Below, piece by piece: positions 2,004 to 57,862 of a stretch of DNA of 64,000 nt. Origin of the DNA: an uncultured Spirochaetota bacterium. Its GTDB lineage: Bacteria; Spirochaetota; Spirochaetia; Treponematales; Rectinemataceae. The first letter of the stretch is position 1. Each line of letters opens with the position of its first letter. A program made the translations under genes and the position numbers. Location: NCBI GenBank assembly GCA_903821875.1, contig CAIJMU010000114.1, positions 1 to 64,000 on the forward strand, given 5' to 3'. The notes under the pieces are model-generated. The model was given only the letters and a program-made list of their open reading frames with translations, was not told the DNA's origin and did no database searches.

Positions 2004-2037
2004 TGATAAACCCTCGGGGTCTGATAAACCCTCGGGG
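2004..2037. repeat. Two tandem copies of an 18-bp unit
   Basis: TGATAAACCCTCGGGGTC at 2004-2021 is followed directly by a second copy at 2022-2037 (16 of 18 bases kept). It lies just after the stop of the barrel protein, at the left edge of the toxin-antitoxin region. The GGGGTCTGA inside it overlaps the junction repeat described below. Confidence 0.7.
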
Positions 2038-2125
2038 ATATCATGAGACCAGCAGCAAGGAACTTGCTGCATCGTGCAGGTGAAGGTAGCATCGACGAAG
2101 GGATCAACGGAAAAAGATGAAGGCT

Positions 2126-2155
2126 GGGGTCTGACCCCAAGGAAGGTCTGACCCC
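2126..2155. repeat. Junction repeat, two copies (GGGGTCTGACCCC)
   Basis: GGGGTCTGACCCC at 2126-2138 and GGTCTGACCCC at 2145-2155. The unit is close to its own reverse complement (GGGGTCAGACCCC), so it can form a short hairpin. It stands before the hicA gene. A degenerate copy, CAGGGTCTGTCTCCTGG, follows at 2180-2196. Confidence 0.7.
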
Positions 2156-2230
2156 GAATTGACGATGATGACAAATCGCCAGGGTCTGTCTCCTGGCTTC
2201 TCGAATTCCAACCTGAGGAGAAAGAAGGGC

Positions 2231-2479
2231 ATGAACAAGAAGAAGCTGCTTGCGATGATCTATCGGAGCAGGAGGAACGTTCGGTACGAAGATTTCATCC
2301 AGCTTGTCCTCGCCTTCGGGTTTACTAGAGTCAGGCACTCGGGGAGCCATGAGATATTCAGGTGTGCCCCTGTGCCCGAGTTCCTCTGTCTTCAGAATTT
2401 CCATGGAGAAGCCAAGGCATACCAGATTGGTCAGTTCTTTTCTCTTGTGGAAAAGTATAATCTCGAACTGGAGGAATAG
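2231..2479 (+). CDS. hicA: HicA-type toxin (mRNA interferase)
   Basis: Small protein of 82 residues of the HicA family, which cleaves mRNA and is neutralised by HicB. The ATG at 2231 is chosen because AGGAG precedes it and the family core begins soon after (MNKKKLLAMI). The active-site block GSHEIF, with the conserved His, is present. The later LCLQNFHGEAKAYQIGQF block matches the usual end of the family fold. The stop is one base before the hicB start, so the pair is translationally coupled. The protein looks intact, unlike several neighbours. Function is assigned from family features only. Confidence 0.75.
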   Translation: MNKKKLLAMIYRSRRNVRYEDFIQLVLAFGFTRVRHSGSHEIFRCAPVPEFLCLQNFHGEAKAYQIGQFFSLVEKYNLELEE

Positions 2480-2713
2480 TGTGAAAGACTACCACATCAA
2501 CATTTTCTTCTCTGATGAAGATGATTGCTACATCGCCGATCTGCCTGATCTCACCTTCTGTTCCGCTTTTGGCGCGACACCGGAGGAAGCTCTTGCCAAT
2601 GTCGAAGAAGCGAAGCGACTCTGGCTCGAGGAGGCAGGTGCTTCGGGATTCCCCATTCCAAAGCCAAGCTACAGACCGATCCTGTACCGCGCTGGATACG
2701 CTGAAGCGGTGGG
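2468..2713 (+). repeat. Duplicated hicB segment, copy 1
   Basis: The 246 bases from 2468 match 3951-4196 with eight mismatches by direct alignment (about 97% identity). The unit starts 12 bases before the hicA stop and ends inside the 3' part of hicB. Confidence 0.9.
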
Positions 2714-2744
2714 TGAATCTGCCCCAAAGCCATACGGATCCTGA
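2481..2744 (+). CDS. hicB: HicB-type antitoxin, copy 1
   Basis: Product of 87 residues of the HicB family. The start is GTG at 2481, one base after the hicA stop, with GGAGG at 2470-2474 as the ribosome site. Residues from YHINIFFSDEDDCYIADLPD give the partial RNase-H-like fold that binds HicA. A region starting EEAGASGFPIPKPSYRP ends the core. The final dozen residues (roughly ESAPKPYGS) differ from the second copy at 3964 and lie against a junction repeat, so this end may be altered. It probably blocks HicA and may autoregulate the pair. Confidence 0.75.
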   Translation: MKDYHINIFFSDEDDCYIADLPDLTFCSAFGATPEEALANVEEAKRLWLEEAGASGFPIPKPSYRPILYRAGYAEAVGESAPKPYGS

Positions 2745-2752
2745 GTGCACAT

Positions 2753-2765
2753 GGGGTCTGTCCTC
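2753..2765. repeat. Junction repeat between hicB copy 1 and the PIN fragment
   Basis: GGGGTCTGTCCTC, nine bases after the hicB stop. The readable PIN-domain fragment starts directly after it, so this copy marks a breakpoint. Confidence 0.6.
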
Positions 2766-2766
2766 A

Positions 2767-2916
2767 AGGAATTGCGCTCATCTTGCTTGTGCGATTCATG
2801 CGAAAGCGGCGTATTTCATGACGACCGACATCAAGATGCTCCATGCAACCCACGATTGCACGGCGATCAAAGTGATCAACCCGGTGGAATGGTTTAAGGA
2901 GTCCTCCCATGACTGA
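2767..2916 (+). pseudogene. C-terminal fragment of a PIN-domain (VapC-like) toxin
   Basis: About 50 codons remain in frame, ending with tga at 2914-2916. The block AHLACAIHAKAAYFMTTD is the end of a PIN nuclease fold (the D-x-x-H-A/L-A segment and the TTD motif with its acidic residue). It is followed by KVINPVEWF, the usual last strand. The N-terminal two thirds, with the first catalytic Asp, are missing; a junction repeat stands where they should be. The stop overlaps the next gene's ATG at 2909, as in an intact PIN/partner pair. I take this as a truncated, inactive toxin. Confidence 0.7.
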
Positions 2917-3109
2917 AGTTCAATTGCGAATCGACGGCATGAAGGCTTTGAGTGACCGCCTTGGCATGGTGGATGCGGAGAGGTTTATCTCCGTCTTGTT
3001 GCGTGAGAAATTCGACTATACGGAATGGCGACAAACCCTCTGGGGGAATATTACCGTGGAGAAGCTCTGGGAGTTAGGTCAGCCCCTGGGGTCTGACCCT
3101 CGAATCTGA
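2909..3109 (+). CDS. Small partner protein of a PIN toxin (probable antitoxin)
   Basis: Product of 66 residues starting MTEVQLRIDGMKALSDRLGM. It begins inside the end of the PIN fragment, an arrangement of coupled toxin and partner genes. Similar small proteins with the pattern DAERFI...REKFDYTEWR are, to my memory, found next to PIN genes, but I cannot name a curated family. The last residues (GQPLGSDPRI) are encoded by a junction repeat at 3088-3100, so the natural C-terminus has been replaced. With its toxin truncated it is likely a relic. Confidence 0.55.
   Translation: MTEVQLRIDGMKALSDRLGMVDAERFISVLLREKFDYTEWRQTLWGNITVEKLWELGQPLGSDPRI
3088..3100. repeat. Junction repeat inside the 3' end of the PIN partner gene
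   Basis: GGGGTCTGACCCT. It supplies the last codons and leads into the stop of the upstream gene; mntA starts 24 bases later. Confidence 0.7.
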
Positions 3110-3124
3110 GAAAGGAGAAAAGCG

Positions 3125-3460
3125 ATGGAAAGCCTTAAAATGAATGACGCGGTAACTACGACCTATATTTCCCTCGTCCGGGCCTCATTAGGTCCCAGGC
3201 TTCATGAGCTGTGGCTATTTGGATCTCGGGCACGGGGTGATTCCCGGCCAGAATCTGATTACGATGTGGTCGTTGTCGCCGATGGCGATCAAGAGGAAGT
3301 ACATGCCCTTGTCGTAGAGAGCAATTACGCCATGATGTGCGAGGGTTCCGCGCTTTTCGGGGCACTCGAGTACTCGCCGGCACAGTGGGAAAAGCAGAAA
3401 AAGACGGGCCTGGGTCGAAATGTCGTGCATGAAGGGGTGCTGCTTTATGGAAATGGATGA
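3125..3460 (+). CDS. mntA: MNT-type nucleotidyltransferase antitoxin
   Basis: Product of 111 residues of the minimal nucleotidyltransferase family, which AMPylates or otherwise neutralises a HEPN partner. The hallmark GSRARGDSRPESDYD is at residues 33-47: GS at 33-34 and the two metal-binding Asp at 45 and 47. AAAGGAG precedes the ATG. The stop at 3458-3460 overlaps the original start of the HEPN gene (ATG at 3447 or 3453), showing a coupled operon. The gene itself looks intact, while its partner carries an early stop. Confidence 0.8.
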   Translation: MESLKMNDAVTTTYISLVRASLGPRLHELWLFGSRARGDSRPESDYDVVVVADGDQEEVHALVVESNYAMMCEGSALFGALEYSPAQWEKQKKTGLGRNVVHEGVLLYGNG

Positions 3461-3491
3461 AGACCTGCGCACGGAATTGCAGAGCCTCTAG

Positions 3492-3962
3492 ATGAAAGCT
3501 GCGAAGAGCCAACATGTAGCCGCGGTCATTTTCGAGCTTGGCTTTTTCGACGATGCCGCGAATCGGGCCTACTATGCGATGTTCAATGCAATCACCCTCC
3601 TCAATGCGCTTCATGGCCACGACCAAGGCAGCGGGCACAAAGAGGTTCTGACAGCGTTCAACCGAGAATTCGTCCTGAATGGGGGCTTCCCCACGACCTT
3701 CGGCAAGATGTTGAGTGATCTGTATTCCCTGCGTCAAAAAGCAGATTACGATCATTTGCAAAATGTCGGCCCGGAAGGCAGCCAACGATGCGTGCGGAAC
3801 ACCGATCAGTTCTTGAACGAAGTGAAGGAGCATGTCGATGCCCTCAGCCCTGGTTTGCTCTTATCGCGAGCCGCAGTTCTTGAGCAACATGCACTGCAGA
3901 CAAAGGATCTTGGAAAAAAAGGTAGTATGGACAAACCCCAGGGTCTGTCTCTGGAGGAATAG
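3492..3962 (+). CDS. HEPN-domain protein, 5' end broken by an in-frame TAG
   Basis: HEPN proteins are the toxin or RNase partner of MNT antitoxins. The fold shows NRAYYAMFNAITLLNAL and, later, LRQKADYDH, both characteristic. The native start is probably ATG at 3447, overlapping mntA, giving MEMDEDLRTELQSL. That reading frame is stopped by TAG at 3489-3491 and reopens at the ATG at 3492. So either translation restarts there, losing the first helix, or the gene is dead. The C-terminal residues after LGKKG (SMDKPQGLSLEE) come from a junction repeat plus the last codons of a hicA copy, so the 3' end is also chimeric. Confidence 0.65.
   Translation: MKAAKSQHVAAVIFELGFFDDAANRAYYAMFNAITLLNALHGHDQGSGHKEVLTAFNREFVLNGGFPTTFGKMLSDLYSLRQKADYDHLQNVGPEGSQRCVRNTDQFLNEVKEHVDALSPGLLLSRAAVLEQHALQTKDLGKKGSMDKPQGLSLEE
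3936..3954. repeat. Junction repeat at the HEPN / second hicB boundary
   Basis: CCCCAGGGTCTGTCTCTGG. Its right edge touches the first base of the duplicated hicA-hicB segment (3951), so it marks the breakpoint of that duplication. Confidence 0.65.
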
Positions 3963-4196
3963 GGTGAAAGACTACCACATCAACATTTTCTTCTCTGATG
4001 AAGATGATTGCTACATCGCCGATCTGCCTGATCTCGCTTTCTGTTCCGCTTTTGGCGCGACACCGGAGGAAGCTCTTGCCAATGTCGAAGAAGCGAAGCG
4101 ACTCTGGCTCGAGGAAGCAGGTGCTTCGGGATTCCCCATTCCAAAGCCAAGCTACAGACCAATCCTGTACCGAGCCGGATACGCTGAAGAGGTGGG
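3951..4196 (+). repeat. Duplicated hicB segment, copy 2
   Basis: It matches 2468-2713 with eight mismatches in 246 bases. It carries only the last 12 bases of hicA, so the toxin was not duplicated. Confidence 0.9.
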
Positions 4197-4209
4197 AAAC
4201 CTGGCCTGA
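3964..4209 (+). CDS. HicB-type antitoxin, copy 2 (no cognate hicA)
   Basis: Product of 81 residues, nearly identical to the first HicB through residue 77, then ending EEVGNLA. The start is GTG at 3964, directly after a residual hicA tail that keeps the GGAGG ribosome site. No hicA lies upstream; the HEPN gene does. It could act in trans on the HicA at 2231 as an extra dose of antitoxin. The high DNA identity to copy 1 points to recent duplication or gene conversion. Confidence 0.75.
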   Translation: MKDYHINIFFSDEDDCYIADLPDLAFCSAFGATPEEALANVEEAKRLWLEEAGASGFPIPKPSYRPILYRAGYAEEVGNLA

Positions 4210-4262
4210 TGCTTGACGCGATGAGGAGTTCAGGCCAATTTGACATACAAAGGAGTACCGTT

Positions 4263-4532
4263 ATGCCGACCATTTCGATGTTCTACGGCATCCTCATCAA
4301 GCTCTTTTACAAGGATATCGAAAAGCATCATTCCCCGCACATTCATGCGGAATACCAAGATTTCACCGCAGTCTATTCGATCCAGGATGGATCTGTGCTC
4401 GCTGGCACTTTGCCCGTCGGGAAGAGTGCTCTTGTCGTGGCTTGGATCGAGATACACCGCGATGAATTGCTCGCTGACTGGAAGTTGGCTGTGGAAGGCG
4501 AAAAGCCATATCCTATCCGAGGGCTCGAATGA
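4263..4532 (+). CDS. DUF4160 family protein
   Basis: Product of 89 residues matching the DUF4160 pattern: MPTISMFYGILIKLFY, then the HHSPHIHAEY block with clustered His, then a short beta region and an acidic/amphipathic tail. AAGGAG precedes the ATG at 4263. It overlaps the next gene by four bases (ATGA at 4529), and DUF4160 genes are very often paired with DUF2442 genes as here. The pair is widely suspected to be a toxin-antitoxin-like module, but the biochemical role is not established. It looks intact. Confidence 0.75.
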   Translation: MPTISMFYGILIKLFYKDIEKHHSPHIHAEYQDFTAVYSIQDGSVLAGTLPVGKSALVVAWIEIHRDELLADWKLAVEGEKPYPIRGLE

Positions 4533-4825
4533 GGATTTGCGCCGTGATCGCCGAGCTTGATGGGCGACTCAAGATCTTCGCTGAGGACGGTCGGTCAGGT
4601 ATTTTCGACGTGCAACCCTATTTTGATTTATCCGCTTTCAAGCCGCTTAGGGACGTCTCCGAGTTCATCCGGGTCCGAACGGGTGGCTACTATGTAGAAT
4701 GGGCCTGCGGAGCCGACCTTTCGGCGGACACGCTCGAATCAGGTATGGTGTGGATGACAAGCCCGATAGGTCTGACCCCCGAAGGATCAGACCCAGAACA
4801 TCTTGGGGCGAGTGTTGTGGATTGA
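4529..4825 (+). CDS. DUF2442 family protein with repeat-derived C-terminus
   Basis: Product of 98 residues. The family core is clear: GRSGIFDVQPYFD, then FKPLRDVSEF, then YYVEWACGADLSADTL. It overlaps the DUF4160 gene by ATGA, so the two are co-translated. After about residue 78 the protein runs through a pair of inverted junction repeats (SPIGLTPEGSDPEHLG), which replace whatever followed the family domain. The core probably still folds. Role unknown; likely partner of the upstream protein. Confidence 0.75.
   Translation: MRICAVIAELDGRLKIFAEDGRSGIFDVQPYFDLSAFKPLRDVSEFIRVRTGGYYVEWACGADLSADTLESGMVWMTSPIGLTPEGSDPEHLGASVVD
4769..4794. repeat. Inverted pair of junction repeats inside the DUF2442 gene end
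   Basis: GGTCTGACCCCC at 4769-4780 and GGATCAGACCC at 4784-4794 face each other and could pair through TCTGA/TCAGA and CC/GG around a GAA loop. Confidence 0.7.
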
Positions 4826-54991: not shown

Positions 54992-57862
54992 TCAACGCCT
55001 CCGCGATAGCTGGTCCGCCAGGTAGACGATGGACTGGTAGGGTATCCCGCCCGACAGGCTCAAACCTATCTCGCAGGTCCGGGAGTTGGAGTAGCCCGAA
55101 CGGCAGTCGCCCGGAAGCTGTTCCTTCAGTGTTCCCAATGCAGACGAACTCAGCTCGGGATGGAAGAAGACCCGGTCACCCGCCACGCCGCAGCAGCCTA
55201 TTCCCGTGGGGACAATGACCTTTTCCGCGAGTGCCTCCGCCACTTCGAGGAAGGCCGCCTCGAGGCCCATCTTCCTCGAACTGCAGGTGACATGAATTGC
55301 GATGGTCTCGGCCGACCTCTTGATTTCCAGCCTTCCGAGGAGGAAGTTCCGGATGAACTCCACGGGTTCGTAGAGGGCGAGGCGAGGGTCCGCCTTTTCT
55401 TTCAGGGTGTGAAGGCAGGGGCTCGTGTCGAAAAGGACCGGATAGTGGCCATCCTCGCTGGCAAGAAGCAGGGCCGCCTCCAGCTCCAGACGCTTTTTTT
55501 CTGCTACCTCGAAGAAGCCCTTGCTGCCGAAGGCCATGCCGCAGCAGAACGCGTCCATGCCCTCGGGAAAGACAACCTCGTAGCCTGCCTTGTCGAGAAG
55601 GGACATCATGGCCTCGTGGAGGCTGCGCTGGTCGGGATCGCCCGGGGCTGGGCCCATGGAGCGGACGATGCAGCTGGGAAAGTAGACGACTTTCAGCAGG
55701 CTTCCCTGGGCCTGTGCCGGACCGGCAGGCCCTGCCTTGATCGACGCAGACCTTCTGGGCAGTGCCCTGTTCCACAGGGGAAGATGATTTCCAGAAAGCC
55801 TCCTGGCTGCCCCGCCGAGGAAGGCGAGGGCAGAAGGACCTATTACAGAACGAACTCCGTCTGCGGCAGAAAGCCCCGCCCGCATGCCGACTCCCACGGC
55901 GGCGAAATTCTTCCCCAAGGCCGCTGCCGTAGCCAGCGCGAGGGGACCCCGCATGGAATGCCTTAGTTCCTTCGTGTGCTTTCCCGTATCGATGTCGACA
56001 GGGCAGGCTCCGGCGCAGAGCCCGTCGGTCGCACAGGTCTTCTCCCCGAAATAGGCATAGTCCCGGGTAATGCGCTCCATGCGGCCGACTTCGGTCCCGG
56101 ATTCACAGAGGCGGGCTACTTCCCGCGTGACCGCTATCCTCTGCCTCGGGCTCAGGGTGAGATCCTTCGAAGGACACATTGCCTCGCAGAAGCCGCACTC
56201 GATGCAGCGGTCCACCAGCTCGTGGGCCCGGGGAAGGGGCTTCAAGTCCCGGAGGTGGGCCTTCGGGTCGGCTGAGATGACGACACCGGGATTGAGGAGG
56301 CCCTTTGGGTCGAAGGCCGCCTTGACCCTCAGCATGAGGGCGTAGATCCGCGAACCCCATTCGAGCTCGACGAAGGGAGCCATGTTGCGTCCCGTGCCGT
56401 GCTCCCCCTTCAGGGAACCGTCGTAGGTATGAACAACCATGTCGCATACTGCGTCCATGAAGGCGCTGTAGCGGGCTACCTCGGCAGCGTCACCGAAATC
56501 CTGGGTGAAGACAAAGTGGAGATTGCCATCGAGGGCATGGCCGAAGATGATGCCATCGCGATAGCCATGCCCTGTCATCAGGCTGCGCAGCTCGGTCGTC
56601 GCCTCGGCCAGGCCTTCGATCGGAAAGACAACATCCTCGATCACGACTGTCGTGCCGATCTTCCTCATCGCACCGACTGCAGGGAAAAGCCCCTTCCTGA
56701 TCTTCCACAGGGCCTCGTAGTCGATCTTCCTGTCCGTGAAGGAAGCGGGCAGAACCATCGGAAGCCCGGCTACCATGGCCGCAAGCCCATCCACGTTCAT
56801 GGCCAGCCCTTCGGGGCTGGAAGAGCGCGTCTCGACCAGGAGGGCGGTAGCCTGTTCATCAAGGGCCTTCAGATAGGGGGGCATGCCCTCTTTGTCCTCG
56901 ACCGAGCGGAGGGAAGAGCGATCCATCAGCTCGACCGCGGAAACAGGGCCCTTCTTGAGGATCATCGTAGCCTGGCAGGCTGTCGCAATATCGGGAAAGA
57001 CCATGAGGGCAGAGGCCTTGCACGGATGCTCCACGACGCTGCGATAGGTGATCTCGGCGATAAAGCCCAGTGTGCCTTCCGAGCCGATCATGAGGTGGGA
57101 GAGGATGTCGACGGGATCGTCATAGTCGATAAAGGAGTTCACGCCGTAGCCCGTTGTGTTCTTGATGCTGAACTTACGGGCGATCCTTCCTTCCAGTTCA
57201 GGATCGCGCAGGATCTCGTCGCGGATCGACGCAAGTTCCGCTGCCAGTGCACTATGGGTAGCCAGGAAGGCCGCTCGTGAGGCCGGATCGCCGGTATCGA
57301 GGATGCTTCCATCCACCAGGACAGCCTTCATGGCCTCGACAGTGCGGTAACTGTTCTCCGAAGTCCCGCAGCACATGCCGCTCGCGTTGTTGGCAGCGAT
57401 TCCACCGATCATGCAGCTGTCGATGGAAGCTGGATCAGGCCCGATCCTGCGTCCCATCGGCGAAAGGAGCCTGTTGGCCTGGGCTCCGAGAATACCCGGT
57501 TCGAGGGCGATGAGCCGTCCGGAATCGAGGATGCGGTGCTTCCGGAAGCCGCCGGCCTGGACGACGAGGACCGAATCGGAGACCGCCTGCCCGGAGAGGC
57601 TCGTGCCCGCCGCGCGGAAGGTAAGGGCTACACCGAACTGATCCGAAGCCTTGAGCAGGGACTGGACTTCCTCGATACCAATTACCTTCACTACGATCTT
57701 CGGCGTGAGCCGGTAGCAGCTCGCGTCGGTGCCCCAGGCGAAGGTCCGGAGCGGATCGGTGAAGATCCTCCCCTCCGGAATGCTCCGGGCTACCGCCCTG
57801 TACCAGGCCCGGTAGTTTTCTGGCAGCAAGGCCAGGTCGGAGTGCCTGTCCGCGGCGCTCAT
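54992..57862 (-). CDS. FAD-linked oxidase / 4Fe-4S fusion (D-2-hydroxyacid dehydrogenase, YdiJ-like)
   Basis: Product of 956 residues. Residues about 60-210: FAD-binding-4 domain (TFRAAGTSLSGQAVSDSVLV, GGIAANNASGMCCG). About 290-540: the FAD-oxidase C domain (GHALDGNLHFVF, GEHGTGRNMAPF). Then two Fe-S motifs (CIECGFCEAMCPS, CATDGLCAGACPVD) and a CCG-type domain (FCCGMAFGSKGF, CCGVAGDR). This is the architecture of D-2-hydroxyglutarate and D-lactate dehydrogenases such as YdiJ. Its ATG overlaps the stop of the serine-hydrolase gene (ATGA), so it is the last gene of the opp operon. Substrate unknown. Confidence 0.85.
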   Translation of the reverse strand: MSAADRHSDLALLPENYRAWYRAVARSIPEGRIFTDPLRTFAWGTDASCYRLTPKIVVKVIGIEEVQSLLKASDQFGVALTFRAAGTSLSGQAVSDSVLVVQAGGFRKHRILDSGRLIALEPGILGAQANRLLSPMGRRIGPDPASIDSCMIGGIAANNASGMCCGTSENSYRTVEAMKAVLVDGSILDTGDPASRAAFLATHSALAAELASIRDEILRDPELEGRIARKFSIKNTTGYGVNSFIDYDDPVDILSHLMIGSEGTLGFIAEITYRSVVEHPCKASALMVFPDIATACQATMILKKGPVSAVELMDRSSLRSVEDKEGMPPYLKALDEQATALLVETRSSSPEGLAMNVDGLAAMVAGLPMVLPASFTDRKIDYEALWKIRKGLFPAVGAMRKIGTTVVIEDVVFPIEGLAEATTELRSLMTGHGYRDGIIFGHALDGNLHFVFTQDFGDAAEVARYSAFMDAVCDMVVHTYDGSLKGEHGTGRNMAPFVELEWGSRIYALMLRVKAAFDPKGLLNPGVVISADPKAHLRDLKPLPRAHELVDRCIECGFCEAMCPSKDLTLSPRQRIAVTREVARLCESGTEVGRMERITRDYAYFGEKTCATDGLCAGACPVDIDTGKHTKELRHSMRGPLALATAAALGKNFAAVGVGMRAGLSAADGVRSVIGPSALAFLGGAARRLSGNHLPLWNRALPRRSASIKAGPAGPAQAQGSLLKVVYFPSCIVRSMGPAPGDPDQRSLHEAMMSLLDKAGYEVVFPEGMDAFCCGMAFGSKGFFEVAEKKRLELEAALLLASEDGHYPVLFDTSPCLHTLKEKADPRLALYEPVEFIRNFLLGRLEIKRSAETIAIHVTCSSRKMGLEAAFLEVAEALAEKVIVPTGIGCCGVAGDRVFFHPELSSSALGTLKEQLPGDCRSGYSNSRTCEIGLSLSGGIPYQSIVYLADQLSRRR

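Follow-up and report, generated by a model that had tools for sequence, protein, structure and literature searches.

A 64-kb stretch of contig CAIJMU010000114.1 from an uncultured Rectinemataceae bacterium (the window) contains a toxin-antitoxin gene array at 2004-4794. A sequence-only reading of this DNA had placed a short near-palindromic repeat at nine positions in the array, and all nine were found to hold the 13-letter palindrome GGGGTCWGACCCC or a variant of it. The repeat is a dispersed, non-random palindrome and not a toxin-antitoxin device. Very probably, GGGGTCWGACCCC is the conserved core of a miniature repeat of the repetitive extragenic palindrome (REP) or terminal inverted repeat (TIR) type, the kind spread by Y1 (HUH) transposases resembling REP-associated tyrosine transposases (RAYTs).

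Within the window, five matches to the word were found at up to two mismatches, all of them within 2004-4794. Dinucleotide shuffles of this 2.8-kb stretch gave a mean of 0.05 such matches and a maximum of one. In the 4.68-Mb genome that the window comes from (G000), there were 23 exact copies of GGGGTCWGACCCC and none of the reversed word, which agrees with the earlier suggestion of a mobile repeat. With up to one mismatch, the genome contained 65 copies compared to 3 for the control word. The exact word did not occur in 378 of the 393 Spirochaetota genomes, and the carriers hold 1 to 126 copies, with 126 in G368, 90 in G023, 40 in G009, and 6 in G022. Other genomes compared were a same-genus relative (G001), a metagenome-assembled member of the same family (G015), and a member of another family (G388). 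Copies are arranged as singles, doublets, and clusters. The core is invariant across families and the flanks are peculiar to each genome: TTTAAAAAA...TTTTTTTAAA in G023, GTCAA...TTGAC in G009, and TGACGAGCCC...GGGCTCGTCA in G000. Inverted pairs in G023 lie about 35 nt apart and fold into long hairpins. A literature search with the word in both orientations found no mention of it. An uptake signal sequence was also considered and was rejected on copy number.

The copies are not placed randomly with respect to genes, which were called with a simple hexamer-based gene caller. Fourteen of the 23 exact copies in G000 are intergenic, compared to 8.6% of random positions, and 3 more are at the 3' ends of genes. 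The interval from -30 to +60 of a stop codon, where about 8% would be expected at random, contained 8/23 copies in G000, 22/40 in G023, 11/17 in G009, 4/9 in G001, and 4/6 in G015. No comparable excess was seen near starts (1/23 in G000 and 0/17 in G009). Several genes terminate on the TGA within GGGGTC-TGA-CCCC. The ends of ordinary core metabolic genes also carry copies, many of them single.

Association with Y1 transposases

The sequence-only reading had suggested a search for a REP-type Y1 transposase, and this search was positive in relatives, namely G015 and the paralogs of G388. The stop codon TAG of one G015 Y1 gene (L069 3298-3816) shares its G with the first base of GGGGTCTGACCCC, and a second copy is found 1.65 kb upstream of the gene, past an intervening gene. 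By our own rough estimate, the chance of a copy falling within 20 bp of one of the three G015 Y1 genes is about 3 in 10,000. The 3' ends of the G388 paralogs have (G)GGGTCAGACCC, either as the exact word (in two cases) or in a closely similar form. G356 has two copies, and a weak Y1 match lies 1.3 kb from the nearer one. A contig scan with the G015 transposase as the query returned only the self-match.

Sister palindromes were found beside other spirochaete RAYTs: GGTGACTGTCACC, GGTGCCAGGCACC, GGTGTCWGACACC, GGGGACAGACCCC, and GGGGACAGACACC. Their shape, GGnGnCWGnCnCC, occurred 16 times in 163 kb of RAYT loci, compared to zero for the reversed class, and several of these palindromes flank both sides of the gene.

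Several points weigh against assigning the repeat to a Y1 transposase. G000 has a single Y1 gene over the family cut-off (contig C57, around 56942-57280), and no copy of the word is found within 1.5 kb of it. G368, G009, and G022 have no Y1 match over the family cut-off despite their 126, 40, and 6 copies, and the association with Y1 genes is based on few genomes. No copy was seen to move. Since the flanks vary while the core is invariant, a conserved protein-binding site could also be at work. Lastly, at least one intragenic copy, in a histidine ammonia-lyase gene, is probably a coincidence. Intragenic insertion was rejected there because the motif aligns to homologs without a gap.

The Y1 gene of G000 is surrounded by a different palindrome, GGGGACAGACACC, and for this reason the gene was rejected as the cognate transposase. 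Eleven of the 16 copies of GGGGACAGACACC are on the 84.6-kb contig C57, as if this palindrome had spread locally. Elsewhere in G000 (contig C94, L025 2365-2397), GGGGTCTGACCCC and GGGGACAGACACC are found 7 bp apart within a PD-(D/E)XK nuclease gene.

Insertion, exchange, and other explanations

It had also been proposed that the repeat drives cassette exchange as a recombination hot spot. Orthologues of argH were compared across 13 genomes. The gene ends on the motif's TGA in G000 and G009, whereas the genes of G001 and the others end on stops of their own. Downstream of argH in G000 is a MobA-like nucleotidyltransferase gene, and the same coding start is recognisable in G001 and G009. Since argH is found with and without the repeat while the downstream gene is unchanged, the locus points to insertion and not exchange, which is the outcome that the sequence-only reading had itself named as refuting its proposal. 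The two argH copies differ in their flanks and, therefore, likely represent two independent insertions in G000 and G009.

Three other observations speak against rejecting exchange altogether, although they also fit gene-end insertion, with no need for exchange. The adenosine-specific kinase gene is followed directly after its TGA by the motif in G001, while G000 has no motif there, and exactly at this point the downstream genes differ between the two genomes over about 1.3 kb. Among the caspase paralogs, shared sequence runs to within a few dozen bases of a copy. In G023 (contig C25, L073 3720-14541), eight consecutive gene units, including AbiEii, a helix-turn-helix protein, a DUF4143 ATPase, and an ISL3 transposase, have a copy between each.

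The same observations can be read another way, with the repeat as a recombination site that bounds cassettes and a single-strand transposase or recombinase acting on two flanking copies to move whole units of toxin-antitoxin, caspase, or ATPase genes, as in integrons. The eight successive G023 units between 3.7 and 14.5 kb, the different downstream genes at the copy behind the kinase gene, and a duplicated hicB segment in the window that begins at a variant are all consistent with this explanation. Also in its favor, DUF4143 ATPases made up 7 of the 95 genes near copies in relatives and did not appear among the leading families in a control set of 95 genes. However, gene order is intact at the argH insertion, the repeat is at just one of the four edges of the hicB duplication, and many copies are single and at the ends of core metabolic genes. 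No cassette was found that has a repeat at each end and for which an empty site exists in another place. We consider bounding of cassettes unlikely. The specific version in which a Y1 transposase acts on palindrome pairs to mobilise the enclosed unit, making the arrays of the window and G023 (L073) exchangeable conflict-gene cassettes, seems quite improbable.

Another possible explanation for the strong bias to positions just past stop codons is that the palindrome is an RNA-level terminator, or a hairpin that stabilises 3' ends, and is selected at gene ends. Cores in G023 have T-runs on both sides and are terminator-like on both strands, and the G023 region has 36 terminator-like sites compared to 14.1 in shuffles. 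This was limited to G023, as the window has 2 such sites compared to 3.0 in shuffles. The absence of the word from nearly all genomes of the phylum (378/393) and of the argH copy from the same-genus G001 rules out a general terminator, although single copies may still act as one. Selection as a terminator is very unlikely to account for the repeat. Lastly, the word could be bound by a conserved DNA-binding protein and not be a mobile repeat. Identity of the 13-bp core across families, with genome-specific flanks, favors this reading, but the patchy spread, the range of 1 to 126 copies between relatives, and the location of sites after genes and not before them leave this with hardly any likelihood.

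Under the explanation we prefer, a REP/TIR-type repeat, a Y1 transposase would recognise the hairpin in single-stranded DNA and paste new copies. These would persist at the 3' ends of genes and in islands of accessory genes under low constraint, such as toxin-antitoxin and caspase genes. The palindrome's TGA often serves as the gene's new stop codon. In G000, the cognate transposase may have been lost, or it may act from a locus that was not assembled or not recognised. The toxin-antitoxin array would be a cluster in which insertions have built up, and local duplication at the copies would be occasional at most. Thus, the repeat accounts for the look of the cluster, while nothing here requires that it shuffles the cluster.

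The array and its gene neighborhood

The copies in the array vary in quality. On the plus strand, the first is a degenerate double copy, TGATAAACCCTC-GGGGTCTGATAAACCCTC-GGGG (left flank and half core, twice; 2004-2037), and the site reported at 2016 is a half core inside TGATAAACCCTCGGGGTCTGATAAACCCTCGGGG. The double copy matches the extended element TGA[CT]RARCCC-N1-3-RGGGTCTG, which was found eight times in the genome's own loci and zero times in the reversed control. It is followed on the same strand by the exact palindrome GGGGTCTGACCCC (2126-2138), one of the 23 exact genome copies, and by AAGGTCTGACCCC (2143-2155; two mismatches), AGGGTCTGTCTCC (2181-2193; three mismatches), GGGGTCTGTCCTC (2753-2765; two mismatches), and GGGGTCTGACCCT (3088-3100; one mismatch). 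The weak variant at 3936, AGGGTCTGTCTCT, was detected with its left flank as GGACAAACCCC-AGGGTCTGTC (3929-3948, plus strand) by a relaxed search for the extended element. This relaxed search gave 29 matches in the rest of the fetched own-genome sequence, compared to 4 in the reversed sequence, and none elsewhere in the window. An extended plus-strand copy, TGACAAGCCCGA-TAGGTCTGACCCC (4755-4779), has its core at 4767-4779 with two mismatches. This core is able to pair with a minus-strand copy at 4783-4795 (three mismatches) as an inverted doublet, and the DNA fold of 4752-4800 gave z = -2.85. The genome-specific left flank TGACRARCCC is also present at sites 2004, 3929, and 4755. Beside the first copies, a GGGGATATCATGAGACCAGCAGCAAGGAAC... 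stretch (window 2023-2076) recurs on contigs C29 (L021 389-443) and C13 (L018) and is a separate short dispersed repeat.

The genes of the array are all on the plus strand. A hicA-like toxin gene (2231-2479; Pfam HicA_toxin, E=2.4e-4, under the curated cut-off) is followed by the first copy of a hicB-like antitoxin gene (2481-2744; HicB_lk_antitox, E=1.6e-6). A nucleotidyltransferase gene of the MNT type (3125-3460; NTP_transf_2, E=6.8e-9), a HEPN gene (3492-3962; E=5.7e-7), a DUF4160 gene (4263-4532; E=5.4e-20), and a DUF2442 gene (4529-4825; E=6.4e-8) were also matched, along with a second hicB-like sequence and a DUF5615 fragment. As had been claimed, three open reading frames take their last codons from the motif. 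The motif encodes the final GSDP of the 66-aa frame at 2909-3109 (the supposed PIN partner), the last codons of the HEPN gene are inside the 3936 variant, and the C-terminal codons of the DUF2442 gene come from two repeat copies. The sequence-only reading had also placed a repeat between hicB and a decapitated PIN gene. The copy at 2753 does separate hicB from a truncated PIN-like frame, but the PIN pair (2745-2916 and 2909-3109) had no Pfam match, so that this label stands as a resemblance only.

A 246-bp hicB segment is present twice. The second copy (3951-4196, plus strand) is 96.7% identical to 2468-2713 by self-BLAST and begins about 2 nt past the 3936 variant, which bears out the claim that a repeat abuts a duplicated segment. 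The second copy touches the variant with its left edge, and none of the other edges has a repeat.

Within 1 kb of the exact copies in G000, the small proteins include DUF2442, MNT, HEPN, UPF0175, ParE, RES, HicA, HicB, and RelB. At least 11 of these 21 small proteins match toxin-antitoxin families, compared to 2 (Phd/YefM) of 82 distant small proteins in the families listed; these do not cover every family that has just one distant member, and the enrichment is thus partly quantified. AbiEii lies near another G000 copy, and at several loci a caspase gene is next to a copy or to a variant with one mismatch. Among relatives, it is DUF4143 ATPases that are in excess, and not toxin-antitoxin genes. 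Toxin-antitoxin and caspase genes look over-represented near copies, probably because such islands tolerate insertions, and the pattern reads best as a build-up of copies in accessory islands.

Since caspase-lectin genes adjoin copies, the repeat was also considered as the hairpin of a diversity-generating retroelement. This was rejected because the copy at the C13 caspase/FGE gene is about 200 bp past the variable repeat and because the copies are mostly found in other places. G000 does have such a retroelement (contig C50, L095 13465-13645, 14496-14999, and 15272-15418; contig C13, L018 1270-1455). On C50, a reverse transcriptase is beside the template repeat, and the variable repeats differ from this template mainly at its adenines. 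Its targets are a local variable repeat and a distant one on the other contig, at the 3' end of a gene with caspase and FGE-sulfatase domains. A caspase plus Lcl_C gene family with hypervariable C-termini ending in VRACRAF was found on contigs C1 (L017), C23 (L019), C92 (L101), and C138 (L029) of G000 and C44 (L081) of G001. An AAC-rich stretch resembling a template repeat, near the C69 reverse transcriptase (L112 about 2464-2523), matches the ends of caspase-Lcl_C genes, which suggests that C69 may carry a second retroelement with several distant targets.

Significance and comparison with known systems

These findings add a little-described repeat family and its probable transposase kin to the Spirochaetota, and they illustrate how repeats can capture gene ends through a lent stop codon. 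The combination of an invariant 13-bp core and flanks peculiar to each genome provides a handle on the co-evolution of Y1 transposases and their repeats. The results also caution that repeats at cassette junctions may be gene-end insertions rather than what brings about an exchange of cassettes. Should units bounded by repeats be mobile, the G023 array would be the place to see it.

The repeat resembles integron attC sites in that both form hairpins, follow genes, and occur in gene arrays with many toxin-antitoxin members. Unlike attC, the centre of the present repeat is conserved and its arms are variable, and no RYYYAAC/GTTRRRY core sites were seen by eye in the flank consensus. The likeness to the REPs of RAYTs, and to their paired forms (REPINs), is closer: a short extragenic palindrome near 3' ends that lends stop codons and forms inverted pairs. 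REPs are found less than 20 bp from gene 3' ends and supply stop codons (Di Nocera et al. 2013, PMC3733652). In contrast to the GTAG and CGTC super-families, the flank consensus of four genomes has no GTAG, and CGTC is present in some G000 copies only (TGACGAGCCC...GGGCTCGTCA), inside the arm and not as an unpaired tag.

The TIRs of RAYT-like transposases (TIRYTs) were the remaining comparison. The G000 repeat differs from these in having no adjacent transposase, and in G015 and G388 the word is mainly 3' of the gene and does not form a clean terminal pair. A cognate transposase in the same genome is often, but not always, the case for REP and TIR repeats. These TIRs share the sequence GGGGWSAS (Di Nocera et al. 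2013, PMC3733652), which the half palindrome GGGGTCAG fits. The adjacency to Y1 genes in relatives, the moderate abundance, and the arrangement as singles, doublets, and clusters are likewise as in this group.

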